Shown one piece after another: positions 35,148-63,750 of a stretch of 64,000 nt of DNA. The notes beneath the pieces were generated by a model. That model was not told where the DNA came from. It was given only the letters and a program-made list of their open reading frames with translations, and made no database searches. The stretch comes from Liolophura sinensis (lineage: Eukaryota > Mollusca > Polyplacophora > Chitonida > Chitonidae). Numbering within the stretch: the first letter of the stretch is position 1; every line of letters begins with the position of its first letter. The translations under genes were made by a program, and so were the position numbers. The DNA lies in assembly GCF_032854445.1 (NCBI RefSeq), contig NC_088300.1, forward strand, positions 67,492,984-67,556,983. The letters are read 5' to 3'.

Positions 35148-36469
35148 ATGATGCTCAAGCTGAGTGTCGCATTTCAGCTGCTCCTCTTTTACAAACAGAA
35201 TGGTAAGACTAATATATTCCCATAGTGGTTTAATATGTAGACAAGGGCTCGCAATGAAATTAAGTGCAATTTTTGTCGATCTTACCTGCCTGAGCGGTGT
35301 AATAGAGAGATCGCACGAATTTACCGATGCCAAAACGAAATAAGGGAAATTATTCGAGACTGCAAGAAACGTTTCAATATGATCCATGCATCAGTACAAA
35401 ATCAACACAAATTAAGACTAAAGGTAGGCCTATTCAGAAAAAAATAGTGAGCCTGTGTTAAGAAACCATAAGCTCATATCTAGATACGAATTCATATCTT
35501 GACAAAACGATGACAGGCCTTTTAAGGGATACATAAAGAGGAACTATAAAACAAAGATTGTGTTACTATGCCATATGAAGAAAATTATGCCTAGGAATTT
35601 TTGTAAAAAAATTTCATACAAAAATTTTCAGATATTTTTATACCTGTTAATTACCCCTCTATATTATGCATATTTTCCGTCAACGGTCGGATTTCTTCAG
35701 AAACTATGTCATCATTTGGTCTTGCTCGGAACTCAGTGAACCTCCGCGTCCCTACACCCGCCGCGATTAGGCGTGTTCGCCACACAATTGTCCCCATTCG
35801 GCCAGGCCCATTCGGTCTGTCTACCACAGAGTTCTTTTTAAACAGGGATCGTCGTTGACGTCACAGCTGCAAGCTACTTAATTTCTGGACTAACTGTTGT
35901 GGCCTAAAGAAAAAAGTGTACTTTGAAGCCATTTTTACCCTCCAAAGTGCAAGTTAAAAAAATTTGTTTGTACTGTTATATGTTATTACACATGATAATC
36001 TGCAAATTAAGAAATAAAATAGAACCGCTTTATGTATCCTTCAATGTTACATATTGTTTTTTGCTACATACAGTACTTGTCCGTTGTGTTTTTGTCGTAA
36101 GTAATTCTCATGCTTGTTTCAGGAACTGCGCATATAGCATATTACAAGAGGAAACAGTCACACGGATACTTCACTGTTCCTCCTGAAAAAATCCACTTTC
36201 ATACAGTGCGCAAGCGCGTGCTCCCTAATTGACGGCTGTTCTTTGATAAGTTACTATAGGAACCAAAAGTTGTTCAAATTATCGACGCAAGAAGGAGAAT
36301 ATGTTGTAGATCCCGCGTGGACAACTCTGATATTACGTGCGCATGAACAGGGATTGGATGGTGAGGTTAGCACGAGTGTACTGAGGTCCCACGTCACTAA
36401 TACCACAACGGCGACTTCGAAAACCATGATGTCATCTCCCACAGATATAACAGATAAAACTACACGCTC

Positions 36470-36890
36470 AGTGGCTTCACAGCCCTCTGATTTTACAACA
36501 ATCACAGGGCCGGTGACATCACATCTCACTGACTTTACACCCAAGACAGAAATGGTGACGCCACGTTCCACCGAGTTTACAATCACGACAGAAACTGTGA
36601 CATCACGACCCACTGAGTTTACAACCATCACAGGAACTTTGACGTCACACACAGTGAAGTTTACAACCACCACTGAAGTGGAAACTCAGACAGCACTGAC
36701 TTCACAACCATCACAGAAACGGTAACGTCAGATCACCTAAAGTTTACAACAGCCAGAGAAAAGGTGACGTCAGATCCCACTGACTTCACAACCACCACAG
36801 AAGCGGTGACGTCAGATCCCTCTGTTTTTACAACCACCACAGGAACGGTCACGTCATATCCCACTGGCTTTACAACCATCACAGAAATGG
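36470..36890 (+). repeat. 42-bp coding-type minisatellite in lectin C stalk
   Basis: About ten units of 42 bp (14 residues), of the pattern TS-x-PT-x-FTT-x-T-x-x-V. Examples: TSRPTEFTTITGTL and TSHLTDFTPKTEMV. The later units lie in a different frame from the earlier ones because of the frameshift at about 36725. Confidence 0.85.
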
Positions 36891-40019: not shown

Positions 40020-43000
40020 TCATAATACTTTCACTCCATTGGTGGGTTTCACATCATCAGGTTTGAACAACGCACATATCCCAGCGTCCTCTCCATTTGT
40101 CACTTCCTCAATGACAGACTTCACTTTTTTAGTTGCCCGAAAGATAGTTGGCAGGTTTTTGATATGAATGTCTTCCTTGAAATGCTGTCCAATATTTTTC
40201 TGGATAAAACAAATTGAAAAAGGTGAGAATTTAAATAGATCTGCAATGACAAAATACATGTAATCTATAGCGCTTATCACTTACTCATCATCACCTATGA
40301 TTCCCATCATCACCTATGATTCCCATCATCACATGTGATCCCCATCATCAAATAGGACTCCCATCATCAAATAAGACTCCCATCATCACATAGGACTCCC
40401 ATCATCACATAAGACTCCCATCATCACATATGATTTACATTCACTTATTTAATTATTTACCTGACTTGTGTCTAACAGTATACTCAAGAATTTTTCACTT
40501 AAACAACTTAAACAGTTAAGTTTATGGCTGGAGGAAACTAAAGAGCCTGGAGTTTAATTTGACTTTCAAGTTGCAGATGAGCCACTCAGAGCTGGACTGA
40601 AGCCTACAACAATGTTTTGGGTCTGATCACCTGTGGCTTACAGAATACTTCAGCTGACTGAGCCAGCCATGTTCTCCGTAACAAGTAGATTTATTTTTAT
40701 CTGATCAGTATTTTAGGCTATATCAAGAATAGTAAGCCGCTTCTGCTATCACAGAGGTCTTCACAGTTGTCAAAATGCTGTAAACTCCCTCCAATGGTGG
40801 TGTATCCGTAGACAAGTTCCAATCCTTGTTTAACAACACGTCTTCAATATTCCACTTTTATAAAAGCAGTCAGGCTTGTAAGTGGGAGAAACTGAAGTGG
40901 CCTGAGTAAAATACTGGACTTTTGCCAGGTACCTGACCAGTTTGAACCCGATATTCCACCAATTTTATAGCTGTAATCTATATAACTTTCTGCATGAATT
41001 AGACATTATCTATTATTAAAACACTTACCCCTATAATATCTGTGACAAGTTTTTTGAATGCCTCTTTCTTTTTCTTATCTGTCAACTGTTTCTGTGGACT
41101 GGTCTGTAATAGTTTGTCATCAAATGACTGCCAGGGAAAGAAAAACAAAGTTTAAATGCAGGCAAAGGTGTTTTATTGCTGTACACAAGAATTTTACATC
41201 ACATCATGACATGTCAGGTTTTAACTCCATGGTCCTCGGAGAAATATGTAAAATCTCTTCACTTGAACCAAAAATACTTCAAGCAAAATATGATTGTAAA
41301 TTTGCACAGACAACAGGCTCCTCAAAAATCAAAGTACCCTATTTCTTCTAGGGCAGATATAGGTACTGCTGAAAGCAAGGAATTATATTTCTCTCTCTGT
41401 TTTTTGGGAAAGTAAAGAATGATATAAATACACTGGTCATTAGATGTACTAACCATATGTACTAAGTATTCCTGCTACAATTACATGTATATTGGTTAAA
41501 AAGAGTAGACCAGGTTTTAAGAATGAGGGCACAGTGTACATGTTGGAAATGTCTTGCATAAGACATTTACACCAAGAATCAACAGGTATAAGAGTAATGG
41601 ATACCCATTAATTATATATCCCCACACTGTCACCCCCCACTTCTTGATAGCAGTGATTCTCTTACCCGGATTGCCTCAGCTTTCACATTGGGTATTTGTT
41701 TCAGCACTTCATTCATGGGTGGATACAAAGGCCTCTGAAAAATTGATGAATATTTTAGCAAATTCTGTCAGTTCCTTTTCACTTAGTTGATTTGAGTAAC
41801 ATCGCTGATTTATTCACGCAATAAATTTATATTTGTGAAATACTACATCGGAGTGCACCGCCCCTTTGCAGGCACCTTGCTCTTGGTGAGCTACAGTTGA
41901 ACTACTGGCTGGCTAATTTGCCTACTGTATTGGTGGGAGGTGTAAAATTATTAGATGTGTCCTGTGAATTCATTCCTTTCATCCATGACAAAGTTACCCA
42001 TTTTGTCTCACTCTGAGACTTATATTAATTATTTTTGTTTTGAAGTTCGTTTGGAAGATAATATCCTACTGGATTAAATGAGTTTCAACACAAAAAAAAA
42101 AATGAATGAATGATTATGGTTTAATGCCACTTCAGTGTTTTAACGGGGCCTCCGTGGCTCAGTTGGTTAGTGCGCTAGCGCAGCGTAATGACACAGGAGT
42201 CTCTCACCAATGCAGTCGCTATGAATTCAAGTTTAGTTCATGCTGGCTTCCTCTCCGGCCGTACGTGGAAATGTCTGGCAGCAACCTGCGGATGGTCGTG
42301 GGTTTCCCCCGGGCTCTGCCCGCTTTCCACCCACTATAATGCTGGCCATCGTCGTATAAGTGAAATGTTCTTGAGTACGGCATAAAACACCAATCAAGTA
42401 AATAAATAAATAAATAAATCAGTGTTTTAACACCAACAGTAATACTTTATGACCTTTATTTACCATTAAAAATGTACTTTTTTGAGGTCAAATTTTAAGG
42501 CAAATGCAGCATAAATGTACTTTTGCACAAGTAGATAAACATAGTTGCTTACATCTTACACAGGCCTTGAATATGATCAGAGTTGCAATGTATCTTTCAA
42601 TGCCACAGGAAGACTTGTCAGATGTAACAAGATACTGTTGTGTCCAGCAGCGTGACTTACCAAAGCCTCATACAGCTGTAGTCCCAGGGTTAGTAAGCTC
42701 GCCTGTATACCCTCATGTTGGCCGTGTAACTGTAGCCCCTGGAGTACTGTGGTGAACAGGAACACTGCCAGGTCCTGGATTACCTCCCCTTGTGACAATA
42801 ACTGACAACAACAACAGAATTATAAACTAAAATAAAAAAACATAAAACTAAATATTTGCTCAAAAATTCACCACTGGTCAGTAAGAATTTGCAAAAATTA
42901 ATTACAGTGGCACACATGTAACATAGATATGACAGTGACAGATGTTAGTAACCAAAATTAAAACACTTAATTCAGCGAATTAAGAAAAAAAAAGTAAAAA

Positions 43001-46000
43001 ATACACAAAACTTATAAATGGATCAGACTGGTTTCTCAAACCCGATATGGATCTGAACACAAAATTTATAATCGTACAATATCTAAATCAGTTACTGCAA
43101 GGGAACCAATGACCAAGAATCCTGTTAGATATGCAAAACTTATGGAAAGATTCAGGTTTTTGATGTAGATGTGAAGTTGCACGTTGTACAGAACTCAGAG
43201 AGTATTTGGAGGAGATATTGCATGGAAACCAAAGCATAATATATGGACAGACCCTGACGCAAATTACTATCCCTTGCTTTTCCTGAAAGCATGGGGAAAA
43301 GAAATAAAGAATACATTCTTAATAAATAAGGGCAGGCAGTCAAAACGATGTTAATTCAATCCTTCACATATAGCGAAGAGAGCAGTAATTTCTTACGTAC
43401 AAGATTTCTTGGATGTGACAATTATACATTGTTAGTAGAACAGGTGATTTCTCAATTAAGTCACAGTTTGTGTACCTGCAGGTATCTCACCTGTTTAACG
43501 AGGGACCAGCACAGATTGATGCACTTGTTACACACTTGAGAGTCATTCCACTTTAGTCCGTTGTACACACATAGTATAACTGACGGGTAAACTGACTGGA
43601 AAAACAGATACAGATATTGTTGTATTTACATGCATTTACAATATGTATGATAAGCAAAATGTCTACAAATAACGTTCTTGAATGACTTTATACATGCAAA
43701 GTTCAGGAGATGTACATGGATCAAGTGATTGGCTGGTGTTTATCAAGGTTTGCTTACAAAGTTCAGTTTATATGGGTAGAGGAAACCACAGAGACAAGTC
43801 TGCTATCTAACTTCACTACATACCATACCTGACAAACCTACTGAATGTAACAGTATTATCGTTAACAGGGATTACACTTGTGATCATCAGAGGGGTAATG
43901 CATGTTCGCTGTAAAGTCTACCGGTCAACTACCTTCCATTTTTTGTGGAAGGCCGGATGGTCGAGTGGTTTAGACGGCTGACATGTATTGCTGGTGGTTT
44001 GGTGCCTGACTCTGAGGTCACTGGTTCGAAACCCGCAGTGGTCTCAGCCAAATTTCAGCACTAGAATCTGTGCTATATTCAGAAAGTGTATTCCCTGTTA
44101 ACGATAATACTGTTACTTAATCCACTTTCTAAAATGACATCTATACCTACTGAATGCAGTCGAAACATTGAGAACTGGGTTTGAACATGCAACCTCAAGG
44201 GCGAGATAGCCAAAGCCAGCCGGTGCTTTTGAGTGAGTGTCTCAAATGAGATGCGTATTTATTTCATTGGTGATCAATGTCATCATCTAGAAGTTTTCAC
44301 ATATAGTAAAGTGTTTTGATGTTTGTTTAGAAGATAGGATGATAGTCTGTTGGTAAAATGTAACTTTCAGCACAAAAAGTATTATAACATTTATTTGCCT
44401 CTTTAAATAGACTTTTTGGGGGCAAAATTTCAGGTTATTTCCCATATACAGCATTGCTCAGCTTCATGGGTGGTGGAAATGCTGAGCAAACTCCTTCAGA
44501 CTGTTACCTCCTGACTTACAAACCAAAAACAGCGATGACTGGATTTGAACCTGTGCCCTCAGTGTTCAAGAGCTGATGTGTTTTGTGAGATCATTGCTTC
44601 AACTGAATGAGTTTGCCAAGATCCATCTAAGATCTTTGTACGATCCGCATGATATTACACAAATTGTCGAGCTCTGTAATCCAAAGTAGTCTCAGGACAA
44701 TTTCTGTTAGATAAATTCAGGTGAACCTGGTATAAAATTCAGAAGCCTCTTGTAACTTAGCTCACCTCCTGTTTCATGACCAGCTGACCCAGCTCACTCA
44801 GGCAGTCATCCTTTGACTGCTGATGCGTCACTGTGAAGTCCTCATCCATCACGTTGTCATCACTGTGTGTTGTGCCAGTGCGGCGGCAATGGAACACTGT
44901 GGCTGACATAATGAAAGCAGACAAACTTGACTACACTGCATAAAATGGTATCATGGCGCAAATTTTAATAAGCTACATGTATTTTTTTATAACGGTTAAT
45001 TAATACTTCTCTACAACAGTAGCTTGATATGTAACAAAATACATATCAGAATACATCACTAGTCACATAGTCTAAACCAATCTCGACTGCTCAGGAATGT
45101 CAAATTTCAAAGAAAGCACATACTACACAATATATCTCTGAAAATTTGTGCAAATGTATTGACAACTGCCATGTTTTTCTCTACAAGTATTAACTGTTTA
45201 CTAAATATATTTATTGTCAAATGCTGTGTGTGTTTGTTGAAATGTAACCTCTCTGTCTAATGAATGAATGCCTGGGGATTAACATCGTACTTTAACACGT
45301 TTTCAGTCCTATGACGAGTCATTATAGGTGGGTGTACATATATTATGTCTTCTTGTGGCAGAGTCCATATCGCCGAAGTGCTGCTGCCACTGAAATATCA
45401 TGCCAAAGACACCAGACATGACACCCCACCCAGTCACATTATTCTGTCACCGGTACAACCAGTCCCGTTTCCTTGCTCTAACCTCTCAGTGCTGAGTGCC
45501 AAGCGAGGCAGCAACAAGTATCTTTTTTAAAGTCTTTGGTATGACCAGACCCGGGTTTGATCCTGGGTCTCCCAACTTCGAGGCGATGTATTACCTGTCT
45601 AATTTTTTACAAGCGTATTGTCAACCAACATCTTCAATGTAACGGTGTTACCAGGTATCAAGCATAGTCATGGTATAAGAGTAAACAAAAGAATCTAAAT
45701 TTGATCCGTGAATAGCCAGACAATCCACAGCATGGCATAAACATGACATGTAACACATGAGTTCGGTCATCATTGTATGGCAGTTTAAGCAGGCGTACAT
45801 TCTTACCAAGCAAATCAATGTATTCCCGGGTAAGTTGTCGTGACAACTGGTCTTCCAACACCTCCTGAGATTCTGGGTTAACATCATCATCAGCACTTGC
45901 AGGGGGGAAAAGTAGAGAAAACAAAGGCAATTTAGAGTCTACAATGGTACAGTATGATGTGCTCAAAACAGATCAAAAACTGTCATATTCTTTGTTTCCC

Positions 46001-49000
46001 ATAATACTTTATACACATGCATTGTCTTTATCTATGGTGGGGGGAAAAGGGGGCAGAGCCCAGGAGAAACCCATGATAATCAGCTGGTTGTAGACAGAAT
46101 TCCCATGTATGCCCAGAGAGGAAGTTGGCAAGAGCTGGATTTGAACTCACAGGGACCACATTGTTGAGAGGCTCCTGGGACGTTGCGCTCGCTGGCGTGC
46201 TCGGCCACGGAGGCCCCCAAATTGCATGTAACATACAATGTTCTTTGACTCACCTATTTTCAGATCGCTGATTTATCACTTGCCACTTAGATTCAAGCCT
46301 CTGAAACACAAATTAACAGATTTATTGATTGATTGCAGCCAATGATTCATCCTTATATTCCTCTTATACTTGATCAACATTAAGTAGGTCAAACAGTCTT
46401 CTGCTCTTCCATAATGGTGGACTGTATAAATGAAAAATGTACCCATCAATAACTTTTTCTTTCATTCATTTTCAATATTATTCAGTTGTACGTCATAATG
46501 ACTGAACAGCAAAAACAACAAAAACGTGAGAAAATTCTCGTAACATCTTTTTGAGACAATTGCACATCTTTGCAACTAACTAGGGCAAATATTTGACATG
46601 TGCTTAACATTAATTTTGGAATTATTGTAAATACTTACAACAGGGCTAATCCGATAGTCAATTATAGCTGTAAGTTACAACTAGCACACCGTACAACCCC
46701 TTCAGACAAGAGGGTGTTGATTGTAAATTAGGTCTATGATTGTTATCTCAGTGATTTACAACCATCTTGGGCTTACAATCCCTTTGTGGAAGCAGCCCCT
46801 GATGTCTTCAAGCAGCCATTCCAGTGAGGCAGCACTATAAATGTCAACACTGAAGCTGACCAGCTACAAACGCATTGCTGATATCATGTCGCAATGCATG
46901 ATAAGTTGAAACTTACATTAACCCAAACACAAATAGTTGAATAACAAGAGAGTAAATGTAAATCCAACAATCCATGTTATATATTTCTCTCCCTCCTCTC
47001 TTTGGAATCTGGCACTATGTTGACATGTACATGTATACACAGGTGCATGTAAGTGCGAGCATTCAACACAGGGCTGTACAAATGGGACTTGAACCTAGGC
47101 TATAGTTTATTTATTTATTTATTTGATTGGTGTTTTACGCTCTACTCAAGAATATTTCACTTATACGACGGCAGCCAGCATTATGGTGGGTGGAAACCGG
47201 GCACAGCCCGGGGGAAACCCACGACCATCCGCAGGATGCTGGCAGACCTGCTATAGTTTAAGTTTTATTAATTCTTATTAAAGTGTACATGAAGTCAAAA
47301 ATAATGTATGCCTCAAATTAGAGGCAACAGAGATGTTAATTCAGAAGTGCTTTACATTGTTTGCCTACAGCTATTTATTACCAAGAAAGCAGATACTTCC
47401 TTAGAGTTTTTTCAAAATATTTTCTTAGGTTTATCAAATTATTCTGTGATGCAAAAAATCTATTAAAACTTATTAGAATTAACTAAGGGGGTTAATCATA
47501 TTCAATTACACAGAAAGTAACTATTTTCAAAATGTTACATAGAAGGAATTCTAATGAAGAGAATGTGACATCATGTCACTTGGATTTGGCTTAACTAGGC
47601 CATCGTAATTTACCTTAACGTAAGTGCACATTACGATGCAGCCAACATTTTTTAAAAAATCAAACAAAAATTGTTTTGGGGGATAGTTTTGCCCAGAGCA
47701 TTGAATGCCAGTGACTTTGATACATTCAGGCCCCAACTAACAGTACTCAAAACTTTAATGACAACCCTAATTTTCTGTCAATGTGTTGTTGTTGATGTAA
47801 CTTCACCTGAAACATATAAGGGCATAGACTGGCCAGCAGGGGGACGATACTGGTGGAATGGAACTCTGATGGACAGTGCAATATCAAAGGCTTCAGGAAA
47901 GAGCTTGCCCCAGTCAAGGAAATATAAAAACATCTTCAACCAAATGAAAATAGTTTGACACGATCCTCAGCAGTAACTGACAACACCAATAATAGCAAAT
48001 AGTTTAAACCTTATAACTTATAAAAGTTTGGATCATATTCAGGAAATAACAATCTCATGCATATTCATGAGATGTATGAACAGAGTAGATGACCCCGTGT
48101 CTCAGTTGATGACCTAGTTTTGGCTGATCACTCTCCAACATTTTTTCCTTTTTAAATAAGATTCCTTTTCTTAATCCCATCATATTGGCATTAGGGAGTT
48201 CGATTATAACCCATTAAAGCGCTGCTGCCCCCATAAATTCTATTGCAAGAAAGAGCTGCTTCAGCTTGTCAATTTCTAAAAATAATCTGACTTCCTACCT
48301 ACATTGTTAGTTTTTAGGCCACATGTGAATCCTTCCACAAACAACACACCTGTAAAACTGTGAAAGTCCCCCAGAACTAAGGAGCCAAAAATAGAGAGCC
48401 ATGGTCCATAAAACTCTGTTTGCAGTGATTTATTAGCCGATTTCATCCACAAAAAAAGGATTCCACGATATGTAAAATACTGTGTACCTTTCCCACCATT
48501 TTTCCTATTTGTTTGGGATAGTTACTATGAGCCCAGCTTGCTCAATGTGATTTTGGCAGGATAAATACTGCTGTATTAAGTAGCATGTAAACTAAAGTCC
48601 TTGTCAATGATGAATATCTAAATAAAGCAGTGGCAGATTTTGACAGAATAGAAGCAGAAAAAAAAGGATATGAATGATTGGCCTTAGCCTGTAGTCAGGA
48701 ATGTGGTCCAGTCCCAGGAAAACGGTCTTTAGGAACATTTCAGCCAGGCCAGGCACTGCGTAGAACTCATAGCCCAAACACTGGCCCGCATTACCCAGAA
48801 TGTGACAACTGTGAAAGGAGCAAAGGTATAAAACGGTATATAAATACACGTGAGAAGGTCTGGCAACAACCTGCGGATGGTCGTGGGTTTCGCCCGGGCT
48901 GTGCCCAGTTTCCTCACACCATAATGCTGGCCGGGGTTGTATAAGTGAAATATTCTTGAGTATGCCGTTAAACACCATTCATCCACCTTATACAGGTAGA

Positions 49001-52000
49001 GCCACTTTTGTGAAGTTTCAATAATTTCTCTTCATGATGTGTTGGCATTACATGTATCATTTTATGGCCTTCATGTGCTTCTGTAAGTGCAGTTTTACAC
49101 TCCAAAGTTAAAAGTTAGAGCATTTATATGAGGCCTGATCCTCTTCTGTGTGTCTGAACACACTAACTAGTAGACCCAACCATTTTGGCTGACCCCATTC
49201 TTCTCAGCCAGTGCATATGGGATTCACTGTATTAAACACTGTAATCTGGACGAACTTTTGAAAAGAACGCAAAACTTCATGTTTGATCTCATATTTATAT
49301 GGGCTGCAATTATTAACAAACAATGAGATAAGATAGGTATCCTGCAATAAAACATTTTCCAAAAATGGCCGATGTACCAACCTGCAGTCATGTATGTTAG
49401 AGAAGAAATTCTGCATTCTCTCCAGCGGTCCTTTGTTAGCTGACAGGTCTGTGTTGTCAATACACGGAGGTTTGATTCCTGCACACAAAGTGACATTTTG
49501 GTTTAAATTAGTTTGCTTTTGTTAACCACAAGCAAGCCTTCCATATTAGACAAACATTTTAGTTCAAAAACACCAAGATATTATCTCATGAATTCTTCAA
49601 CAAAATGCTTTATGTACACTTTCTTTGATTTGGTAAAAAGATTTACCTATGTATATCAAGTATAACCAAGGAACATAAGAAACCCAACAGCCAGCAACTT
49701 AACTGTAACTCTCATATTCCACAAAAGCTCAAGTAACCATCTTATTATATTTTTATATAAGTTTCTGAATAAATGGCGGGTACACACAGCTTCTCACAGT
49801 ATTTCACAGTACTTCATAATAACAAGCCCAGAAGCCTGCATGTCACCAATACGACCCATTTCTTACCTAACACGGCCTGTTTATCAGCATCCTGCAGATC
49901 GTAAGCTTTGGTGAAATCTGGGTGGCGCAGTTTCACATTATCAGCATTCCACAGAGCATTGAGGGTTCTGTTCAAATGATAAGCAGATAAACACAAAAGA
50001 CAGACCTGCCATTAACGGAAGGTAAGGTATATGGAACATAGTACAATCTTTATCAGCTTAAAAAATTCTGATGTATGAAGAATAGTATAAACATCTTTTT
50101 GATGGCCAATATAGTGTTTTGTCAGCAATTTCACACTACTCTGGTTCATATCACAAAGAAATTTTCTCCAGCTGAACAGTTCTATTGCTGTCTTTAATAT
50201 GCACATGTACAGTGTTGTTTCGCTTGTAAAATACACAAGAATCAACAGCTACACCTACATGTACATGTGACCCATTCACAGAATACAGACAATAGGCTAA
50301 TAAATAGAATTATTACAATTACTTATGAATTATTTACTTATTCATTTATTTCAGGGGCCTCCATGGCTCAGTTGGTTAGCGCGCTAGCGCGGTGTAATGA
50401 CCCACGAGCCTCTCACCAATGCAGTCGCTATGAGTTGAAGTCCAGCTAATGCTTCCTCTCCGGCCGTCTGCGGGAAGGTCTGCCAGCAACCTGTGGATGG
50501 TCATGTGTTTCCCCTGGGCAGTGCCCGGTTTCTTCCCACCATAATGCTGGCTGGCGTCGAATAAGTGAAATATTCTTGAGTACAGTGTAAAACACCGATC
50601 AAATAAATAAATATATATTTATTTGAGTACTGTTAATGCCATACTCTCTCAAGATGGCAGTCGGACTAATGGGTGGAGGAAAACAAAGTTCCTAGGGTAA
50701 ACCATCAACCTTTACCTTGTACTTCTTGACTTAAAAAGTATTTGAGCTGGATTCAAACATCTCATTAACCCACTTATAAAATGTTTGGCCAGAAATAATA
50801 ACGTTTATGCCCAGGACTGAACATGGGTCTTCCTCATCAGAGGCCGATGCTCTGACCATGTCATCGATGCTGAATCTGTCTGTTACACAGAGAAATCTTC
50901 TCAGTTAACAGTGTTCGGTCTACCGCACAAGTCTAAGTTACCTCATGAGGATCAGAAGGTTTTCCATCAGCTGTATGATATGGTCTGTTGCAGGGTTCCT
51001 GAGGACTGTGGAACCTCCGGCTGTGTTGACCTGGAACCCTCCAGCTTGGGCAACCTGCCAAAAACACAAGGAAACATGCCTTCAGCTTTGTATCTAAATA
51101 AAGTTTTTAGTGCGGGCCTGAGGAGTAGTTCTCAGTGGCAAGCTGCTAGCTCACTACTACCTCATTTACCGAACGTTTTTGGTATCCAGCAATGTGTCTC
51201 GGATCTCGGATGTACACTACTTTTGAGAACTTTGGCGTATACACCATCTCCAGGTTATTCAGTACACTTCTGTTTTGTATTAGAGGCCTAATATAAGTGT
51301 ATTTACTCGTTTGATGTGTAGCACTGTGAAACAGCTGTTCAGTGATACACAGGTGCACCATTGGGATGCCACTGGCTGGCTGGTGGCATGCCACTGGCTG
51401 GCTGGTTGAATGTTTCATGTATCCAAATAAGCTTCACCTTGCCTACACACATGTTTGTGTGCAGAGATAAAGCTATGGTCTGTAAATATACATGCAGTGA
51501 CCAGTAGCCAGCAGTGAACTAAAAGTTAAGTCTGATGTAAATCTTGATACCAGTCTCATCCTAACTGAAAGTAAATGGCACTTCAATTTGGATTAAGGTC
51601 GAAACCTGGCTTATAAAATCCTTCTTCCACTTTTGAACAACAAGCTGAAGCAGTTCTTCAGTGATTAGCTATACGCCGCTGGCTTTTTAGTGGCTTGCTA
51701 CTGGGTTGACAGTAAAGAGATAAGACCATCTGAACCTGTATTTACAAACTGTCATTCAATACAACTACTACTTTTTCTGTCGTCAAGATATGACCTCCAC
51801 ATCCACAGAAATGACATGAATAGCAGCAGAACAGAAACATGGAAATGTAATTTAGTACTGTACAAAAGTGCACATTCGTTTCTACATCTCTCTGAACAAC
51901 ATGTTCCACTGCACCAATCTGGAATCACCAGAGTATAAAATCAAACTGTCCATGTTTAAAAGCTACAGTATGTAAGATATATACAGTGACTACATACATG

Positions 52001-55000
52001 TATATACAACATGTCATACAATTTTTTAGTCATATGGTGACCAGAGTCATTCTAATTCTTTTGGCAAGATGAGCCTATGTTGCCAAAATGCTGCCATCAC
52101 TTGAGTACCATGCCAAAGACACCAGACATGGCACCCAACCAGTTCACATTATACTGACATAGGGACAACCGGTCCTGTTTCCTTGCTCTAACCTCTCAGT
52201 GCAGAGTGCTAATCGAGGCAGCAAAACAGTACCACTTTTAGAGTCTTTGGGATGACCATGATTGATCGCATCAGCTACAGATCCGCTGTACACACCTGGG
52301 AATCATCTGGCCACGTGCTCCGCTTCAGGACAGCTAACATTGTGCTGATACAGTATGTAATCTGCAGGAAGAAAATGACAAATATTACTGTGTAAGATTC
52401 ATTAAACCACATTTGATCATGAACAACACAACCATGAGTCTAATATAATGCTAGCTATACCATCAGTGTCCAGGAGAGACATATTCTGCCAACTACAGAT
52501 GGGGGAAAGTGGAAGGACAGTAAAGGTGAGGCACGTGTATATGACTTTCAATTGTCCAGGCACGTAGTCACATCTGCCTTCCATACGGAAAACTAAACCA
52601 GAACAATCGCAACAGTGGTACATTTTCATGTTCCGTTCGCCATCAATAGGAAAATAGGATCTCAGAAATCACCTTTTGGGGGGAATGCTAGTGGCAACGT
52701 CACCAGAATAGACTTTAATTTCCCTTGTAACCGAAAAGCACTACTGTTTATTGCATTTGAGAAATTGACGATAGAAACTTCACTAATTGACTGGCACACA
52801 CTAACCTAAATCTGTCATTTGACAGCTTAGAAGCAATTGCTGGTAGATCAGATTTGAGGGCAGGGAGACACTTTGGGCTGTGCTCCTCAAGCCTCTTTCT
52901 ACTCAATGGTCCAATACATCACTAAATGCTCGTGAGTTGTCTAATAATAAGTAACTCAATCGACTTCAGGAAACTAGAAATTTCTCACACAGTTTCTTCA
53001 TCTTTACGTGAAATATTTGAAACTGTAAGCTATTTGACAGATAACCTTAACTGAACTTCGTTGCTTTTTTAACTTACATGAGATCTGTTGATGCCACTGA
53101 CATCTTCACTACTGGGCTCCACTGGAGGCTGGTCTAAGCCCACATAACACATGAACTTCCCGGGGTCCCAGAATGCCCTGCACAAGAGAGAAAAGCACAA
53201 TTCAACAGAAACCAGAGAGAATAAATTCAAAATACTCAAATTGTGCATGGTACATTTCCAACATGTTTCCTCTTTTCAAAAGAGCTATTAAATATTTTTT
53301 TTTTTTTTTATCACTGTTGAAGAGATTTCTTTTCCTTTCTTTTTCCAGGTATATTCCATTCTGACTACATGGACTGTGCTCTAAACACTAACAAGCCAGT
53401 CCTCATTTTATCACACTGTGATCCAGTTAACAGAAGTTTAAAGACAAAATGGTAGGCAAGTGTTCACAGTGTAGTGTACACTGAAGATACATGTAAGCTG
53501 GCCAGCAAAGTGCTCACGACTGAAAACAATATGGTAGAGATTCCAAAGAAGTGATCTAAAAGTTTTTATGTGCTGCATTTATTAGATAAGCTGTCACAGA
53601 ATTCTCAACATAATTCCCTTCAAATCCTCACCACAGAAAGAATCTATTGTTATTGCATTTGTAATACTGATCTTACTGTTTGAATTCCTCTGACAACCAC
53701 ATGGTCTTCACTGGCTTTATAATAGTCTCTATAAACCTGGACTGTTTCTCAAAGTTCTGGTACTGGTTACTGTAAAGAATTTTAAAAGAAGTTTATGTTT
53801 GAAGATATAAAGTTGTGATAAAGTTCTCAAAGAGAATTTACTTACCCAAATTCCTCTACCTTTCCATATATGAAAGAGCAACTTCCAGTGCAATTCATGC
53901 ACATTTTGAATTTGACTTTAGAGGCAAAACGACAATTGGCCAATTTCAGGGCTTCACAAAAAGTATAAGTTTATCAGTCCACATAGAATAATGCCTTCAC
54001 AATAAGCTTTAATAAATACCTTGCAATCATGCAAACAGGTATTAACCTTTACAGTATTGTAAAGGAATTACAGTACTGTCATGATTGAGGCAGAACATAG
54101 TCGCAAGCAACAATATGGTGCGATATGATAAGACACACTAAATACTACCAGTCTTAAAGGTCACACTGTACACTTTACATTGCAGACTTTAGTGAATGGA
54201 AAGACTTAAATAAATCACACACTTTATTACTTCAACAGAAATTTGGTACAGTGTCACATTCAATTTATTTACTTGATTGTTGTTTAACACAACACTCATG
54301 AATTTTTCACTTATACAACAGTGGTCATTTTTATGAGCAGAGGAAACAGGATTGCCTGATGCTCAAAAACAGCTCACCTTCACAGAAAATCCCATTCCTT
54401 GTTTTACAAGTAGACAAGTGGTTTTAAGAAACATAAAGAGCCCCACAAGCAACCACCAATCATATTCTCACAAAGGCCCAAAAATTGAGAACAAAATCTA
54501 AAAATGAATTGTCCAGGGCCATGTCATATTAAATGAAGCATGCAGGCTGTTACATGATATGTGTCACCCAATCTAGTTAACACAGCAGATTGTAGGGTAT
54601 CACGGAATGCTGCCAAGCAGTAAACTGCGAAACAGGCTTTTCAGGGTACGTAATTAAAGAGCACACACTTGATGAGTATTAGGGCCTCCATGAGGGTGCA
54701 CTTCTCCATCTGTGACAGCTGATCTGGGTCTCCACTGATTGAGGAGATATGGGTACACAGCTGATCAAAGGCTGGCTGAAAATACACGTGTACACTTATT
54801 AAAATGTGGTTACCCAGCTGATGAAAGGCTGGCTGAAAAAATGCAACATGTACATGTATTTACAAATGAAACATGGTTACATACATGGAGTTTATCGAAG
54901 AATGGCGGAAAATACACAACATATGTACAAATATTTAAATGTGGGAGCACAGCTGTTCAAAGGCTGGTGGAATTGGAAAATACACAAAAATGAAATCAGA

Positions 55001-58000
55001 ATTACATATTTCTCAATGCCTGTACTGATTTTATACCTGCTGTAAATTAGGGTGGTTTTTTATAGATCCAGTAACATACAGTATAGATGGTGTTTTATAT
55101 TTTTAACTTTGTGTTGTAACTTCCAACAAGTTTGAAGGCTGTCGAACTTCCAACAACTTTTAAGGGTGCTGTAACTTCCAACAACTTCCTAAGTGTGCTG
55201 TAACTTCCAACAACTTTATAAGGGTGCTGTAACTTCCAACAACTTTCTAAGAGTGTTGTAACTTCCAAGAACTTTATATGGGTGCTTCAACTTCCAAGAA
55301 CTTTATAAGGGTGCTGTAACTTCCAACAAACTTATAAGGGTGCTGTAACTTTCAACAACTTCCTAGTGTGTTGTAACTTACAGAACTTTATAAGGGTGCT
55401 ATAACTTCCAACAACTTTATAAGGGTGTTGTAACTAATCAACAACTTTATAAGGGTGCTGTAACTTCCAACAACTTCCTAAGTGTGTTGTAACTTCTAGA
55501 ACTTTATAAGGGTGCTGTAACTTAACAAAAGGATATCAAGGTGCCATTGAAAGATCTTCATAAACACACAACACGCGTGGATTGTTACATTCTTCACTGC
55601 CCGCACTAACTTACCAGTAATAAATCAGGGTGCTGTTATATTTAACTTACCAGCGATATATCAGGGTGCTGTTTACATATTTTCACTAGCACATCCAACA
55701 TTCTTCTCTGCCTGTACTTACTTACCAGTAACAAATCAGGGTGCTGTTTACAGATTTTCACTAGCACACAGCATGCATGACGCCTGACATTCTTCACTGC
55801 TTTGCTTCTTGTTGACTTCGTCTGACCAGGAATGTTGAAGACAACCAAAGAAAAAATCTTGAACAAAAAAGTAAGAAACACAGTTTGCATTGAACAAAAC
55901 AGTTTAAATATTTTACTGCTTGCCACATCTCTATCTACCAATCACTTGAACACTAAATGCAGAAGACTTGCATAACAATGTATTACTGGTACACTAGCAT
56001 CCTGGGTTTCAAACAAAAAAAATCTGCAAATACATTTTTCCTCACATGTCATGTAAATCAATATAATTTTAAGGTACTGTAACCTAAACATTGCTTCCAA
56101 ATTTGGTGACGCTCAGTTTAATGCAGGTTTGAGAAAATGACATTCGGCAACCAATGAGAGTTTAAATCATTACACTACTTAGATTTATTTATTTATTTCA
56201 TTGGTGTTTTACGCCGTACTTAAGGATATTTCACTTATACAACGGCGGTCAGCATTATGGTGGGTGGAAACCAGGCAGAGACCGGGAGAAACCCACGACC
56301 ATATGCAGGTTGCTGGAAGACCCACTTAGACAGGCTACACCGATCTGAACAAAACTCAAGTGGCAGATCTTAGCATATCAAATTATTTATTCATTTGATT
56401 TTTGTTTTACTCAGAGCCCAATTAACAACTGAAAACCTCTTGAGTCCTGGGCTTGTGCTAGTATGCTAACCCCTGTACCACAGAGGTTTAGTTTAGACCT
56501 AAAGTTTAGATTGTTGTCACCACAGAGACTATAAGTGCAAACAATATTTAGTTTGACCTCGCTGATCAAGGGTTATAGTCACTTTCTATGAGAAAACAGG
56601 CTTCCTGGATAGCAGTGCACCACACCCTGAAATACCTTATCACAGCAAACAATTCTACTTACCTTATCCAGAAGAGATGGTAATATTTCTGGGGCCGAAG
56701 TAAGGAAAACAAATAATGCAGAAATGCAAGACAGCAGTGATGACAATATTAGGGGGTCCTGAAAATATAGCATATGATGATGATGAAAATGTTGCATGAA
56801 AGGCCACAGTTTTGTGCATAATACTAGCTAAATTGATATCTGGTTGTGAGAAACATAAAATAAGAACCGTGTCGCTACTGCCCTGTGGGTCATTACTGCC
56901 CGTTAATGTCCTCGCATTTTATAGACAAGCCTCTCAACCACTAGCTACATTGTTTGATCATGAATTTTTGGTGAAGTCTGATTAACTTCTTTTTGGAAAA
57001 ACTCAAGTGTTAATATCAAAAGTATCATTTTATTCACGACCTTTGCATGCATCTAAAAGCGCATTTTTACTGGTCAAATTTTGGGGTGAAATACTGTGAT
57101 TGCCACATCAGGAAGTTACCTGTGTTTGGTAGACAAAGACTGTCTTGAGCAGACGGATACCCTCCTGCATATAGCTGGTGTCCCCAGTTACGGACGGCAG
57201 CTTGGTCATCATGTTCTCCAGGAAAACAGTCATGGCGTCCCATTCCAGAAAAGAAGGGGAGCTCAAGTTACAGTTACCACTCTCCGTCGCTGAAATGAAA
57301 CATAGAAGCAAGTTTTCAACAGATTGACATTTTAATTCATTTATTTGATTTGCGTTTTACGCCGTACTCAAGAATATTTCACTTATACGACGACGGCCAG
57401 CATTATGGTGGGAGGAAACCGGACAGAGCCCGGGGGAAACCCACGATCATCTGCAGGTTACTGGCAGACCTTCCCACGTACGGCCGGAGAGGAAGCCAGC
57501 ATGAGCTGGACTTGAACTCCATCGACCGCATTGGTGAGAGACTCCTCCTCCTGGCTCGTTACGCTGCTCTAGCAAGCTAACCAACAGAGCCACTGAGGCC
57601 CCCAATTGCCATTTTAAAGCAAGTTTATTACTGCTTGTCGCCTATACTAGTATTTAGGGATGGGCGGAGAAAACAAAAATTGCTTTGGAAGATATACATC
57701 ATGAATGAGCTTCATTCTAGGACCACATAAAAGACTACCCTCAACCACATACTTCCCCTGAGGCTCATTGAAGTACGGCAACAGATATGATCAGATCTTT
57801 CATTTGTGTTTTACTGTACTGATGAGTATTTGACTTATATGATTAAGATCTGGGGCTGTTTTCACGAAGCTTTCTTAGCCAAGTGTGCCCTTAACCATCA
57901 TGATAACATATGTTGTAGAGATATGACGTGCACTTAGCTAAGTTCTACTTAACAGTAAGTATGCTTCATGAAACTGGCCCCATCTTTGTGAGTGGAAGAA

Positions 58001-61000
58001 ACCATGTCAATCCCAGAGTAAGCTACCACACCTAACCAGGTAACCAAAACTATTCTTATGGTATAAAACACAACCAAGTACACCCAACTTTATTATCTAC
58101 CTTTCTGAACAGCTAACGCCGACCTTTTGTTGAATGCAGACACAACTTACACTTAACCCTTTTCCTTACCTGTTCCGGCATCTACAGGTTTCTTGAGTAA
58201 GACATCAAGCCACTGCACTGCAAAGCCAAAGGTAAAGCTGGGCTCCAGGCGTGTTGATAATCTGATCGTCTCAGAAATCTCTGCCCTGTACTCTGATAAA
58301 GTGATTGACAAGTGTAAGGAAAGTACACATATTCATTTGGCAAATCAGATTTTCACACTGACATTCCAGTACAAAGTTAAGTTCCCAACGAGATACATGT
58401 ATACATACATGCCACAGTAATGTGGCTCCATTTGGGTTCAGATTTTTAAACCTTTACAAATGGAATGAAATTTTTGTAATATGTGACTCCTAAACCTGCC
58501 CAAGAACATAATTTAAATGACCAATCTAATACTGTTTAATAAGTTTTCTATATTCTGTACACCACACCATGTTAACATTGAAGTATCCTTAAAGATTAAT
58601 TGTCGAATCAATTTAAAAAAAACTTGCACATACATATCTATAAATACCATTTTTTGAAAACAATTAATTGTTAGCTGTTTGCAAAGCGCTTGTAAAGACT
58701 GTTACACACAGGTAAACATATAATTATGAAACAAGCACTTCTTATTCTCCAAAGGTGTAGACATTACAACAGGTTTTGTAATCAAAAATCAAAATTACTT
58801 TTTGTTTAGATCAACAAAATATTGACAAAAACGTTTTTTTTTTAAACAAATTCCAGATGATATCGAATTCTTACTTGAGAAGAAGGCATTGAAATCTTCA
58901 TCGCTGTCAAAATCCTGCCTAGCAAAGTCGCAGCTTGGGGAATTTATCTGACTTGGAAAGCCAACCTAAGTACAATCAAGCATTTCGTTTCATCTGTAAA
59001 CTTCTGTATTTTTTGCTTCATTGATGTTTGATGCGAGTGAGTGAGTGAGTGCTTTGGGTTTCACTTTGAACTTAGCAATTTTCCGTCATAAGACGACTAA
59101 GGAGTCCTCAGAGAGCATGTACGTGTGATGTGCCTCTTTGCCGCAGGGCAGATTTTCACCGCTCTTTTTATCTAGCGCTGCTTCACTGAGACGACTTACC
59201 AAAGACAAGTAAGTTGCCCCACCCCAGCCACTATAATGATACAGGTCAACCAGTCTACCTTCGTGCTGAATGCCAGGTGAGAAGCCACAACTTATTCTCT
59301 TAAGGTCTTAGGTGTGACCCTGGATTGACCCTGGATCTGCTGCCCCTGAAGCAGATGTTCTACCAACAGGGCCAGTCATTGATGTTTGATGTCACACTCC
59401 TAATAATGTCAGGTAAAGACCCACATGATAGAGGTACACCTAGAGAAGCACCCGATGAACCCTACCACATTATGTTACAACTGACCCCTTAAACTTTCAC
59501 AAAGATGCATACATATAAATATTAAAATCAACCACCTGTACTCATGTTCTATGACAGAAATATTAGCATGTTAACTCATAAAAACAGATCAATTCAAATA
59601 CCAAAATTAATACTTCCAAAATATATTTGCCAATGAAAGATGTAAATACATTTGCATGCGATTCACTTACTCTACATGTATTTTAACTGAAGTTTTGCAA
59701 TTTGCAAATGATGTATTTCACTTCATACTGTTTGATTCATTTTTCTTCTAGGAACCACTCACCCTACTTCCTCAACCTTTCAGTGCAATACAGGAACATT
59801 TTTAATTTGATTTTGAGGACACAACTAAGTTGGTTGGATTGGCCAATTTTCAGGTTTCACAAAAAGGAAACTTTTATCAGTCTACACAGAATAATCCCAT
59901 CAGATTGTGCTTGTATTAACTCCTTGCAAACATGTGAAAAGGTTGAAAGAATTATAGTATGAGCTTTGTGAAGTTTGATTATTTTTTTACCGGAATAACT
60001 TAAGAATTCTTCACTGATACAATAGCAGTGAATAATACGGGTCCATATTATAATGAGCAGTATATACATGTACCTTTAACAATGTGATTGTGGCTGTTTC
60101 CATTAGTTTAGGTATGAAGGATAACACCACAGAATCTTGAGATATAACTTCATGACGTAGAAAAGATGCCCACAAGGACTGAGTAAAACTACCAAGCATC
60201 TACAACAAAGATGAGGTTCATTATTAAATCGAATATAAAGTAAATGATAAAACAATAATACATATACTTACGACAAGTTTAACAAGGAGATTACAAATTT
60301 ATTGGCGAAGGCTGTAGTTTCAAATTTGTCAAAAACCACAATGGTGCATTTTATGTTCCAAGTGATGATATTTCAATGCCAAAGGGACTTCAACTGTTCA
60401 AAAGTTTAATTTCTGGTTCATATTTATTCATAAAGCTTATTGTTGACAACATTATTTTCTAGGTATTGCAACATTTTTGAAAGCATACAAAACCTGTTTT
60501 TATGAACAAAAATGAAAAATATTTGTTTTATGCCACCAGCATTATGACAAGAAGGAAAGCAGGGCTCACACGAAACCCATGATCATCTGCAGGTTGCTGA
60601 CAGACCTTCCAATGTACGGAGTGGAAGCCAGCACTTGACCTCACAGGGACTGCATTGGTGAGAGGCTCTCGAGTCTTTATGCTGTGCTTGCAAGTTAATT
60701 ACTCAACTACTCAGGCCCCTGCACACTTTATAACCTTTGTTCTACTCCAGAATTTCTTCAGCTTCCTGAATTGTGGGAAATACTGGGTGTGTGCTGTTGG
60801 GTGGGAGCTGAGCTGTACTTACCTGACTGGGGTGTAAGGTGAATGCCAGGACTGACTGGAGATACTTCTCAAAGTTAGGTGGCCTGCATACTCCTTCAGC
60901 TGAACCCTGACATATATAAAAATATTTTTGAGGATTTCACTCATAAACTTCACACACAGAAACACTTAACTGCTCTCATTTATCCATAATGTAAACTGGT

Positions 61001-63750
61001 ATAAGTGGACGAAAGGAGGAATGCATCAAAGAAAGATGAGTTTTAACATTAGTTCAAATCTTTAATCAAAATATACCATAATATACTACAGAATTCAACT
61101 CCTGTTAAACTTGACTGCCAGCAATTCCGTGGTGTGACTATGTATATGTGTAGTTTGCTAGTCAAAGCCTCAAACCAACACCTCCAGGGTGCAAATCACA
61201 TGACACAAGTGGCAAAGGGTAGGATGAATTATGATGTATATCACGGCATTAAAGCGGTCCTAGTTATCATAAAATCATGTTGATTTCTGCTGTAATGTTG
61301 CAGAGGTTGTATGCGACCCAATTTTATCATATCACATATATTTATTTATTTATATTATTGGTGTTTTACGCCGTAGTCAAGAAATATTTCACTTATATGA
61401 CAGCGGCCAGCATTATGGTGGGTGGAAACCGGGCAGAGCCTGGGGGAAACCCACGACTATCCGCAGTTTGCTGGAAGGCCTTCCCACGTACGGCCACAGA
61501 TCACATATTCAACAAAAAGCATTATGCATTACAGCAAATAACAACAGCGTTTCACTTCCGTTTCCAATAATAGGATTCAGCGTACAGCATCCAATGTGAC
61601 AACAAATTTAAAATTCAACAAGATCATATTTCTTTCCTAAAGAAGTTTTCACTTTAACTGAACTTAAACAGTGGACTTTCAAAACTCCATACTCTGAAAT
61701 TTAAATCCAGATTTAATTGGTCAGTCCAGTTTATCAAAGGAATCACACTACTTGCACGACATTAACTTGAATCATTGTGTATTTCTTAGACTGACATTCC
61801 ACATTATCCCAACACACAGTTCTGTGGTCTCAGGGGCATGTGACCAATGTGCCGTATTGTTTTCATTGTTTGGGAATTTCTACAACCAAAAACATGTGGG
61901 AAATCAAGATGGTCACCAAAATACATTGAAGCTATAAGTCCATAGCTATCATTCATGATTATTATGGCTTAAAGAGGCTACACCAGAGATTTTTGCCAAA
62001 AATATCCATATTCCTGAATCAAATTTTTTGTACTTGCCAAGATAGCTCAAATTATTACCCTTTAACAAACATCAGACTTGTACGGCCATTACTGTTTATA
62101 GTGTTAAAATGATTCTATAAGTTATAATGCGACCCACTTTATAAATTTTAGGAATTTTATCAAATAGTTTTCAAATGGTAACACGTGCACCAAAATTCTG
62201 AGAAAGGTAACTGTTTAAAAATAAAAAGCCAAAAAATTGATTGGATCTGCTACAATCCATTTTTTGTAAAACATTTCTGGTACAGCCTGTCTGATACCAC
62301 TTTCGCTTTATTGCTGCCATACAATGGTGACAATGTGGTGAATGACTGAAACGAAACTACACTTCACCTTTCTCTAGACATGTTACAAGTGCACAGTTTA
62401 TCATCTTAATTTTGCATGCAGTTCTCATACTTGAACATTCATGTAAGAGAGATATAAAGATGACGGCTTACCCAGACAGCACAAAGCTGTTTGCCAATCT
62501 CTGTCAGAACTTGACACAACTTCTTTAGGAAGAGATAATAGTATTCATCTAACGACGAACTGGCTGACCTTAAAACACAAAGCAAAGCGCTAGTAAGTCA
62601 AAACCACCAGATCCAAACAATTCTTTATTTATTTAATTACTTGATGGCCGTTAAATGCCACATTCCAGAATTTTCCTAAATTGCACTTGCAAAGGAGGCA
62701 GTTATCTAGATGGAGGATATCGAATTGCCACTGACAGGTTACTGATGAGCTTTCCTACCTGCAACTTACACATCTGTACACCATATCGGTGGAAGACAGC
62801 TGTCGTCAACGAATGTTAGACATGAGCATTGTCAACCAATTATCATCACCAAGGAACCTACAAATTCCCTGTCCAAGGTGGGGACTGAACCAGCAATGAC
62901 CGAGCTACATCCCACTACCTAACACAATATGGAAGGATATTTCATTAATATAGTGTAGCAAAAGAAACACTGCTTCTTTGAAAATGCAAAGAAAAGATTG
63001 AAAAACGTTTATCAGTGGCTTAACTTTATCACATGTGTACGACAGCAACTTGTTTATTTATTTATTTCATTGGTGTTTTATGCCGTACTCAAGAATATTT
63101 CACTTATACGACGGCGGCCAGCATTATGGTGGGTGGAAACCAGGCACAGCCTGGGGGGAACCCACGACCATCGGCTGCTGGAAGACACTCTCACGTATGG
63201 CCGGAGAGGAAGACAGCATGAGCTGGACTTGAACTCACAGCGACCGCATTGGAGAGAGACTCCTGGATCATTACGCTGCGCTAGCGCGATAACCAACTGA
63301 GCCACGGAGGCCCCAGCAGCAACTTGTTGTTCAACAAACAAACATAAGTTAGCATCCATGTCAGACAGAACTAGAGGTTGACATCAATAACAGCAGAAAG
63401 AAATTATTACCCTAATTCTTGTAAAATTTGGGACAGATATTAGTAGTGTTGAAAGTACATTATATTTCATTACCAGTCTTTTGGAAAAGTAAAGATATGA
63501 GTATGTTGTTCAATTGATGGTCAAACCATGTGAGAAGAAAGAAACTCAATATTCTGACTAGAATTACATATATATTGGCTAAAATGAGCAGACCAGGTGT
63601 CGCAAAATTTAGAAGAAATTCATTATTACACAATATGTAGCTTATTTTCTAGTCAGTCTCTAACATTTCTTACCCAGCAGCATTAAGAATTGTGTTCATG
63701 GCATCTTCACTGAAGAGAATCAACAGGGGCTTTCTCTCTTCAACCTGACC
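40020..63750 (-). CDS. XPO5: Exportin-5 (pre-miRNA nuclear export receptor), C-terminal 924 residues, 26 exons
   Basis: Exons in order on minus: 63674-63750, 62472-62568, 60823-60906, 60074-60199, 58875-58965, 58170-58292, 57120-57289, 56663-56758, 55726-55857, 54669-54775, 53677-53769, 53078-53177, 52296-52361, 50942-51054, 49867-49967, 49382-49478, 48672-48808, 47807-47904, 46254-46300, 45807-45895, 44766-44902, 43491-43595, 42661-42801, 41666-41734, 41029-41127, 40020-40199. Every junction is in phase. All introns have GT-AG ends except 47905-48671. Recognisable XPO5 segments: DFDSDEDFNAFF; VKNVRRHACCVLVKIC; QMEKCTLMEALILI; HIPDYRLRPII; SKWQVINQRS; NPESQEVLEDQL; LQLHGQHEGIQASLL; and the C-terminal KEDIHIKNLPTIFRATKK followed by an acidic tail. 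The family is a HEAT-repeat karyopherin that binds RanGTP and pre-miRNA hairpins in the nucleus. The vertebrate protein is about 1,200 aa, so roughly 280 N-terminal residues (Ran-binding part) lie beyond 64000. No stop or frameshift is seen. Confidence 0.96.
40285..40436 (+). repeat. 19-bp minisatellite, eight copies
   Basis: TCATCACCTATGATTCCCA and variants (AAATAGGACTCCCA, CATAAGACTCCCA) repeat every 19 bp in the last XPO5 intron. Confidence 0.9.
42132..42431 (+). mobile_element. SINE-A, full length, with 13-bp target-site duplication
   Basis: The element is 42145-42418, flanked by TCAGTGTTTTAAC at 42132-42144 and 42419-42431. It begins GGGGCCTCCGTGGCTCAGTT (A box) and has a B-box-like GAATTCAAGTTTAG. 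It ends in AATAAATAAATAAATAAA. This is the best reference copy of the family in the window, in an XPO5 intron and antisense to the gene. Confidence 0.95.
43847..44116 (+). mobile_element. 270-bp MITE with 32-bp inverted ends and a tRNA-like core
   Basis: The ends 43847-43878 and 44085-44116 are reverse complements with one mismatch (outer part GTAACAGTATTATCGTTAAC). The middle, 43951-44045, resembles a class II tRNA: GGCCGGATGGTCGAGTGGTT (A box TGGTCGAGTGG), a long variable region, and CACTGGTTCGAAACCCGCAG (B box). No transposase is present. A partial inverted relative lies at 31285-31480. The target-site duplication is unclear. Confidence 0.8.
44450..44660 (-). mobile_element. SINE-D-like fragment
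   Basis: GGTGGAAATGCTGAGCAAAC, then GATTTGAACCTGTGCCCTCA, which on minus gives a B-box-like GGTTCAAATCC. Degenerate. Confidence 0.4.
45250..45600 (-). mobile_element. SINE-E copy 1
   Basis: Shares with 52040-52270 the blocks ATGCCAAAGACACCAGACAT, TTTCCTTGCTCTAACCTCTC and CGAGGCAGCAACAAGTATC. The right end on minus has a B box (GGATCAAACCCGGGTC), consistent with a tRNA-derived head. Confidence 0.7.
46036..46217 (-). mobile_element. SINE-A, degenerate, head half
   Basis: GTGGGGGGAAAAGGGGGCAG through GCTCGGCCACGGAGGCCCCC. The tail third is missing on the left. Confidence 0.8.
47099..47260 (-). mobile_element. SINE-A, 5'-truncated, with target-site duplication
   Basis: The element 47110-47249 is flanked by GCTATAGTTTA (47099-47109 and 47250-47260). 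The head is missing although the duplication is intact, so it was truncated at insertion (incomplete reverse transcription), not by later deletion. Confidence 0.9.
47905..48671 (-). other. U12-type (minor spliceosome) intron of XPO5, AT...AA ends
   Basis: On minus the donor is ATATCCTTTTT (48671 downward), a textbook U12 AT-type donor. TTCCTTGAC (47921-47913), a perfect U12 branch site, lies 9 nt from the acceptor. There is no usable GT donor here. Protein continuity (YRLRPII, then RS, then FLKPLILHCPSEF) and phase (1 base + 2) require the exon to start at 47904, so the intron's last two bases are AA. Shifting to the adjacent AG would break the frame. Confidence 0.8.
48859..48985 (+). mobile_element. 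SINE-A tail half
   Basis: GTCTGGCAACAACCTGCGGA through TATGCCGTTAAACACCATTC, in the intron between XPO5 exons 49382-49478 and 48672-48808. Confidence 0.85.
50354..50612 (+). mobile_element. SINE-A, full length
   Basis: Head GGGGCCTCCATGGCTCAGTT, tail AAACACCGATCAAATAAATA. The flanks share an ATTTATTT-(C/G)AG motif, which is a possible but weak target duplication. Confidence 0.88.
52040..52270 (-). mobile_element. SINE-E copy 2
   Basis: ATGCCAAAGACACCAGACAT, TTTCCTTGCTCTAACCTCTC, CGAGGCAGCAAAACAGTACC and GAGTCTTTGGGATGACC parallel the copy at 45250. The tRNA-like end is lost. It abuts the XPO5 exon at 52296. Confidence 0.65.
54262..54480 (-). mobile_element. Degenerate SINE (A/D-like tail)
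   Basis: TTATTTACTTGATTGTTGTT, then TTTTTCACTTATACAACAGT: an old tail with unrecognisable head. Confidence 0.5.
55111..55525 (+). repeat. Minisatellite with ~29-bp unit, about 13 copies
   Basis: Units of the form GTGCTGTAACTTCCAACAAC plus TTTATAAGG, with two alternating subtypes (TTTATAAGG and TTCCTAAG). It lies in the XPO5 intron directly next to the duplicated exon end. Confidence 0.92.
55607..55725 (-). repeat. Two partial tandem copies of the 3' end of XPO5 exon 55726-55857
   Basis: On minus, the exon end (VLVKICKQHPDLLL plus GTAAG donor) is followed by a copy encoding VLVKICKQHPDISL with its own GTAAG donor (exon edge at 55651). A shorter copy follows (CAGCACCCTGATTTATTACT, donor edge at 55615). 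Between them is a GCAGAGAAGAATGT or GCAGTGAAGAATGT block from the same exon. The 75-bp and 36-bp spacings show tandem duplication across the exon-intron border. Confidence 0.85.
56177..56330 (-). mobile_element. SINE-A, 5'-truncated, with short target-site duplication
   Basis: The element 56184-56323 lies between two ACTTAGA copies (56177-56183 and 56324-56330). The tRNA-like head is absent. Confidence 0.8.
57324..57617 (-). mobile_element. SINE-A, full length, with 12-bp target-site duplication
   Basis: TTGACATTTTAA (57324-57335) and TTGCCATTTTAA (57606-57617) flank the element, one mismatch apart. It lies just upstream of XPO5 exon 57120-57289, on the acceptor side. Confidence 0.9.
57852..57981. 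mobile_element. 130-bp MITE with 19-bp inverted ends
   Basis: Left end GGGGCTGTTTTCACGAAGC and right end (reverse complement) GGGGCCAGTTTCATGAAGC match at 16 of 19 positions. The flanks share ATCT, a possible target duplication. The inside is TTAGC/TTAAC-rich with no coding capacity. Elements with these ends are widespread in animals, from memory. Confidence 0.75.
59036..59386 (-). mobile_element. SINE-B, full length with tRNA-like head
   Basis: On minus: CTGGCCCTGTTGGTAGAACA (A box), GCAGATCCAGGGTCAATCCA (B box), then the body and the GTGAAACCCAAAGCACTCAC tail. This copy shows that SINE-B is tRNA-derived. Confidence 0.85.
60531..60719 (-). mobile_element. SINE-A, degenerate
   Basis: CCACCAGCATTATGACAAGA through CAACTACTCAGGCCCC. 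Many substitutions; an old copy. Confidence 0.75.
61331..61508 (-). mobile_element. SINE-A, 5'-truncated, with target-site duplication
   Basis: The element 61340-61499 is flanked by ATCACATAT on both sides. It breaks off inside CACGTACGGCC, before the B box. Confidence 0.88.
62620..62930 (-). mobile_element. SINE-D, long copy
   Basis: TTATTTATTTAATTACTTGA tail, then GACAGGTTACTGATGAGCTT, GTACACCATATCGGTGGAAG, CAACCAATTATCATCACCAA and a GGACTGAACC block at the head end. Confidence 0.6.
63043..63328 (-). mobile_element. SINE-A, full length, with 12-bp target-site duplication
   Basis: The element 63055-63316 is flanked by CAGCAACTTGTT (63043-63054 and 63317-63328). Its head is complete and its sequence is close to the 42145 copy, so it inserted recently. 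Confidence 0.93.

Follow-up and report, generated by a model that had tools for sequence, protein, structure and literature searches.

The intron that separates two exons of an exportin-5 (XPO5) gene, on the minus strand of the 64,000-nt stretch of DNA analysed here (the window), raises the questions of which spliceosome removes it and after which base its 3' end is cut. On this strand the upstream exon, ...CCAATCATTC, stops at 48672 and ATATCCTTTTTTTT starts at 48671. Very probably, this animal XPO5 gene carries at 48671 to 47905 a U12-type (minor-spliceosome) intron that belongs to the A-type (AT-AN) class and has the ends AT-AA (Table 1). The original reading of the sequence proved accurate when both strands were read again.

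Table 1. Positions of the XPO5 gene model, the putative AT-AA intron and its candidate signals in the window
Feature	Position	Strand	Remarks
XPO5 gene, modelled part in the window	40020..63750	-	25 introns between 26 coding segments; covers human residues 279-1204
XPO5 exon 5' of the AT-AA intron	48672..48808	-	match to human XPO5 849-892; CTCCTTTCACAG precedes
Putative AT-AA intron of U12 type (phase 1, length 767 nt)	47905..48671	-	top-tied in-frame pair with splice signals; sole gap without GT-AG
Candidate U12-type 5' splice site ATATCCTTT, running on as a T tract	48663..48671	-	9/9 to RTATCCTTT
Candidate U12-type branch site TTCCTTGAC	47913..47921	-	9/9 to TTCCTTRAC
Predicted AA 3' terminus, 9 nt past branch A	47905..47906	-	frame kept; Arg rebuilt, aligned with human Arg893
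Competing AG acceptor, out of frame, one-base overlap with AA	47904..47905	-	10 nt past branch A
XPO5 exon 3' of the AT-AA intron	47807..47904	-	match to human XPO5 893-923; RSFLKPLILHCPSEF...PYMFQ

The gene was traced by tblastn with human exportin-5 as the query, a sequence whose residues 279-1204 agree by eye with PDB 3a6p_A. The search returned a minus-strand chain of exons running from 63750 to 40059 and largely collinear with the human protein, and the 5' (upstream) portion of XPO5 was not found by it in the 64 kb. The stop codon is at 40022-40020 on the same strand. The spliced model comprises 922 aa and matched human XPO5 (3a6p_A, residues 279-1204) with an E-value of 2.6e-262 and the Pfam family PF19273 Exportin-5 at 4.4e-155. 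Because of these two matches the identity of the gene, as read from its sequence, is secure, and the assignment to XPO5 made in the original prediction is upheld by them and by the tblastn chain alike. As expected, a stretch of 124 XPO5 residues had no relatives in prokaryote genomes and viral contigs. The two exons bordering the intron align with human XPO5 849-923 free of gaps across their junction; the upstream exon closes with ...DYRLRPII and one further base, which opens an Arg codon, and the downstream exon has the donor CAG/GTGAAG (here and below, a slash marks the splice position).

Joining this pair of exons across a single intron with an open frame was possible in 4387 ways, which were enumerated and scored by protein match; the solutions listed were the 25 with the highest scores of all and the top 40 with GT-AG, GC-AG, AT-AC or AT-AG ends. 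The top score of 181 was common to AT-AA, CC-TC and CT-CT pairs, among which splice signals are present at AT-AA only. One-base shifts such as TA-AG and AT-GC (His in place of Arg) scored 176, that is 5 below AT-AA. Because two other pairs tie at 181 and such shifts come this near, homology alone does not fix the exact base of the junction. Junctions of the GC-AG, AT-AG, AT-AC and GT-AG kinds reached at best 166, 164, 161 and 85, respectively, and were discarded in view of these scores and of the quality of their signals; the best AT-AC solution would use the branch site itself as its acceptor. At the AT-AA junction the reading becomes ATT C/GC TCT (Ile-Arg-Ser), and the predicted exon-exon join is ...AATCATTC/GCTCTTTCC, as against ...ATTC/CTCTTTCC for an AT-AG cut.

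The other introns of the gene served as a control, the enumeration being repeated between 26 fixed anchor peptides that define 25 gaps. An in-frame GT-AG solution was found in 24 of the 25, the sole exception being the gap under study, as anticipated by the claim that the exon end has no GT donor. The shortfall of these 24 solutions against the best unconstrained score was 0 to 9, except for a value of 20 in gap 6, where a further exon may be hidden. Perfect donor and branch signals had likewise been claimed for the intron, and both score 9/9; the remaining 24, which were modelled as GT-AG introns and then scored for U12 signals, reached at most 5/9 for the donor and at most 7/9 for the branch site.

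On their own the U12 motifs say little, because of their counts in shuffled sequence. RTATCCTTT has 4 copies in the window against a shuffle mean of 1.12, with at least 4 copies in 2 of 100 shuffles, and TTCCTTRAC has 2 copies against a mean of 1.33, so that about one chance copy of either motif can be expected on the two strands of the window. When the donor is allowed to lie at most 2 bases from the boundary and the branch site within a stretch of 27 positions, a first-order Markov model puts the probability that both occur at one homology-defined intron at about 4e-7 for the 25 introns together. This figure, the two perfect motifs and the lack of a GT-AG solution sustain the U12-type class given in the original prediction. 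Three further U12-like donors on the minus strand (17738, 26296 and 55536), like the second copy of TTCCTTGAC at 22815, lie, by eye, at no recognised exon end and were taken as chance occurrences; the one at 26296 is antisense within a transposase-like ORF and the one at 55536 falls in a decayed exon copy.

The alternative of a major-spliceosome intron with GC-AG or GT-AG ends, perhaps with a micro-exon, in which the U12 motifs arose by chance, is barely credible. It can draw on the in-frame GC-AG pair from 48655 to 47904 that accounts for the score of 166, at the cost of adding HILFFL before SFLKP. These residues would be inserted into a conserved block, the donor, TTCT/GCTTCTATTC, looks weak to the eye, and two perfect motifs would be left to the small joint chance given above. 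Any model with a micro-exon would still require the upstream exon to close with a donor. Read-through of this exon is open as far as 48606 on the minus strand; the sole GT of this extension, at 48644, is absent from the best-scoring solutions listed.

The remaining alternatives accept the minor spliceosome and concern the acceptor. On the minus strand TTCCTTGAC is followed by TGGGGCAA, which ends at 47905, and then by GCTCTTTC, and the candidate branch nucleotide is the A at 47914, the only A in TTCCTTGAC. The dinucleotides with A first that end 5 to 29 nt past it are AA at +9, AG at +10, AA at +22 and AG at +23; within 5-20 nt the choice is between the AA at +9 and the AG at +10, and AA alone keeps the frame. 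The spacing of 9 nt, re-measured here, is the one originally predicted; it is short, and both near acceptors are a little close to the branch A, because the published optimum is 11-13 nt (PMC3584512). U12-type introns have no distinct polypyrimidine tract beside the acceptor; here TGGGGC separates the branch site from the AA, but the pyrimidine fraction of the 20 bases that precede the terminal dinucleotide is 0.60, inside the range of the other introns (0.55-0.85). A U12 spliceosome that mainly cuts one base later, as AT-AG, shifting the frame to an early stop and leaving the transcript mostly unproductive, would work at a distance closer to the optimum. Such a cut would truncate the product after ...RPIIPLS, adding Pro-Leu-Ser before the stop, yet the downstream exons are open and resemble human XPO5 to its last residue, 1204; AT-AG is moreover called a disfavoured combination (PMC3584512), and we regard this reading as highly improbable. 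The intron could also be an ordinary U12-type AT-AC (or AT-AG) intron whose AA is an assembly base error or a private allele. The AA differs from the usual YAC acceptor by one base (CAC versus CAA), and an AT-AG intron would be in frame if one more base followed the AG; the error would, however, need to have struck exactly here, which we judge improbable a priori, and natural AT-AA minor introns exist. This explanation is unlikely, if somewhat less so than the other alternatives weighed here.

The AT-AA reading is favoured over AG by frame, homology and the habits of the class rather than by signal strength. The earlier view of AA as the in-frame acceptor holds in that AG meets a stop and AA restores the Arg at human Arg893. 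With regard to class habits, Parada et al. (PMC4176328) report earlier findings that an intron with a 5' A can be spliced whatever its 3' base, AC being the preferred end. In U12-type introns the donor is paired by U11 and the branch site by U12 (PMC2846911). By analogy with known U12 introns, U11 would recognise ATATCCTTTTT at the 5' end of the XPO5 intron, and U12 would pair with TTCCTTGAC, leaving the A at 47914 free to form the branch, before U6atac and U5 would enter for both steps of catalysis. The 3' cut would then fall after AA, at nine bases from the branch A, with the XPO5 frame kept; a cut at this place is possible because the last base is weakly constrained in U12 introns that start with A. 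Splicing of the intron in cells as AT-AA, and likewise its ancestry, are predictions drawn from the gene identity, motifs, frame and homology observed. A more speculative and very unlikely idea is that the overlap AA/G acts as a one-base switch, the AA cut giving functional XPO5 and the AG cut an early stop and presumably decay, so that the choice of acceptor, or slow excision of an A-type intron, would regulate how much of the miRNA export receptor is made in this lineage.

Several features of the surroundings may be recorded. Scans of the window with Rfam at the gathering threshold and for tRNAs gave no matches, and no repeats of at least 14 nt were reported in 47700-48850. Directly upstream of the exon that precedes the intron, the stretch at about 48820-48990 resembles by eye the peptides of ORFs elsewhere, e.g. 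50618-50379 and 42446-42222; because similar peptides occur in other ORFs of the window, this suggests a dispersed SINE-like repeat. Another intron of XPO5 holds a minisatellite at 55111-55523 with 14.4 copies of a 29-nt unit (a period of 116 nt was also called). Beside it, in the downstream intron and adjoining the exon that ends at 55726, lie partial and decayed copies, in tandem, of the end of an XPO5 exon and its donor region (55520-55673), with 51 nt at 63% and 90% identity and a stretch of 81 nt that recurs 200 nt away at 70%. On the plus strand, two overlapping ORFs in different frames at 25063-27473, the first matching DUF4371 at 2.2e-17 and the second without a Pfam match at 0.001, look like a hAT-type transposase. 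Three other plus-strand ORFs (13066-14010, 29319-30020 and 36138-36722) are alike by eye and have the motif QCASACSL..GCS.IS and Ser/Thr-rich stretches. The first two lie just under the Pfam cut-off for the PAN domain and the third gave no match; the three may belong to a PAN-domain gene family located next to XPO5.

Motifs, frame and homology point to one junction and make this intron a clear AT-AA candidate, which is a useful test case for gene predictors limited to GT-AG, GC-AG and AT-AC ends. In the original prediction the AA was put forward as a possible species-specific acceptor variant. If its orthologues are AT-AC, the minor spliceosome would have tolerated a change of acceptor in a conserved transport gene. 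Among the matches listed in the literature, the main texts made no statement on a minor intron in XPO5 or exportin-5. U12-type introns with AT-AA ends are an already described phenomenon, to which the XPO5 case adds a candidate. According to Larue and Roy (PMC10639083), non-canonical ends occur in about 3.8% of the orthologous minor introns of animals, no such pair is more frequent than AT-AA among conserved minor introns of animals and plants, and molluscs are among the protostomes with a relative enrichment of minor introns. The notion that AT-AA is rare therefore needs qualifying, as these ends are uncommon, and yet form the largest non-canonical class (PMC10639083). The XPO5 intron has the same terminal dinucleotides as those animal and plant AT-AA introns, which were filtered by orthologous clusters, whereas it is known here from a single locus. 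In the CENATAC study (PMC8280824), AT-AC, AT-AA, AT-AG and AT-AT introns are treated as one A-type class that is spliced less efficiently; AT-AC makes up 84% of these introns, and 92% of the A-type introns responded to loss of CENATAC. The XPO5 intron has the 5' AT in common with this CENATAC-sensitive class, which explicitly covers AT-AA, although XPO5 itself is absent from the main text of that paper. The test case used there, intron 21 of IPO5, is in a different gene and has an AC acceptor in place of the AA in XPO5, but it is likewise an A-type minor intron in the gene of a nuclear transport receptor (PMC8280824).
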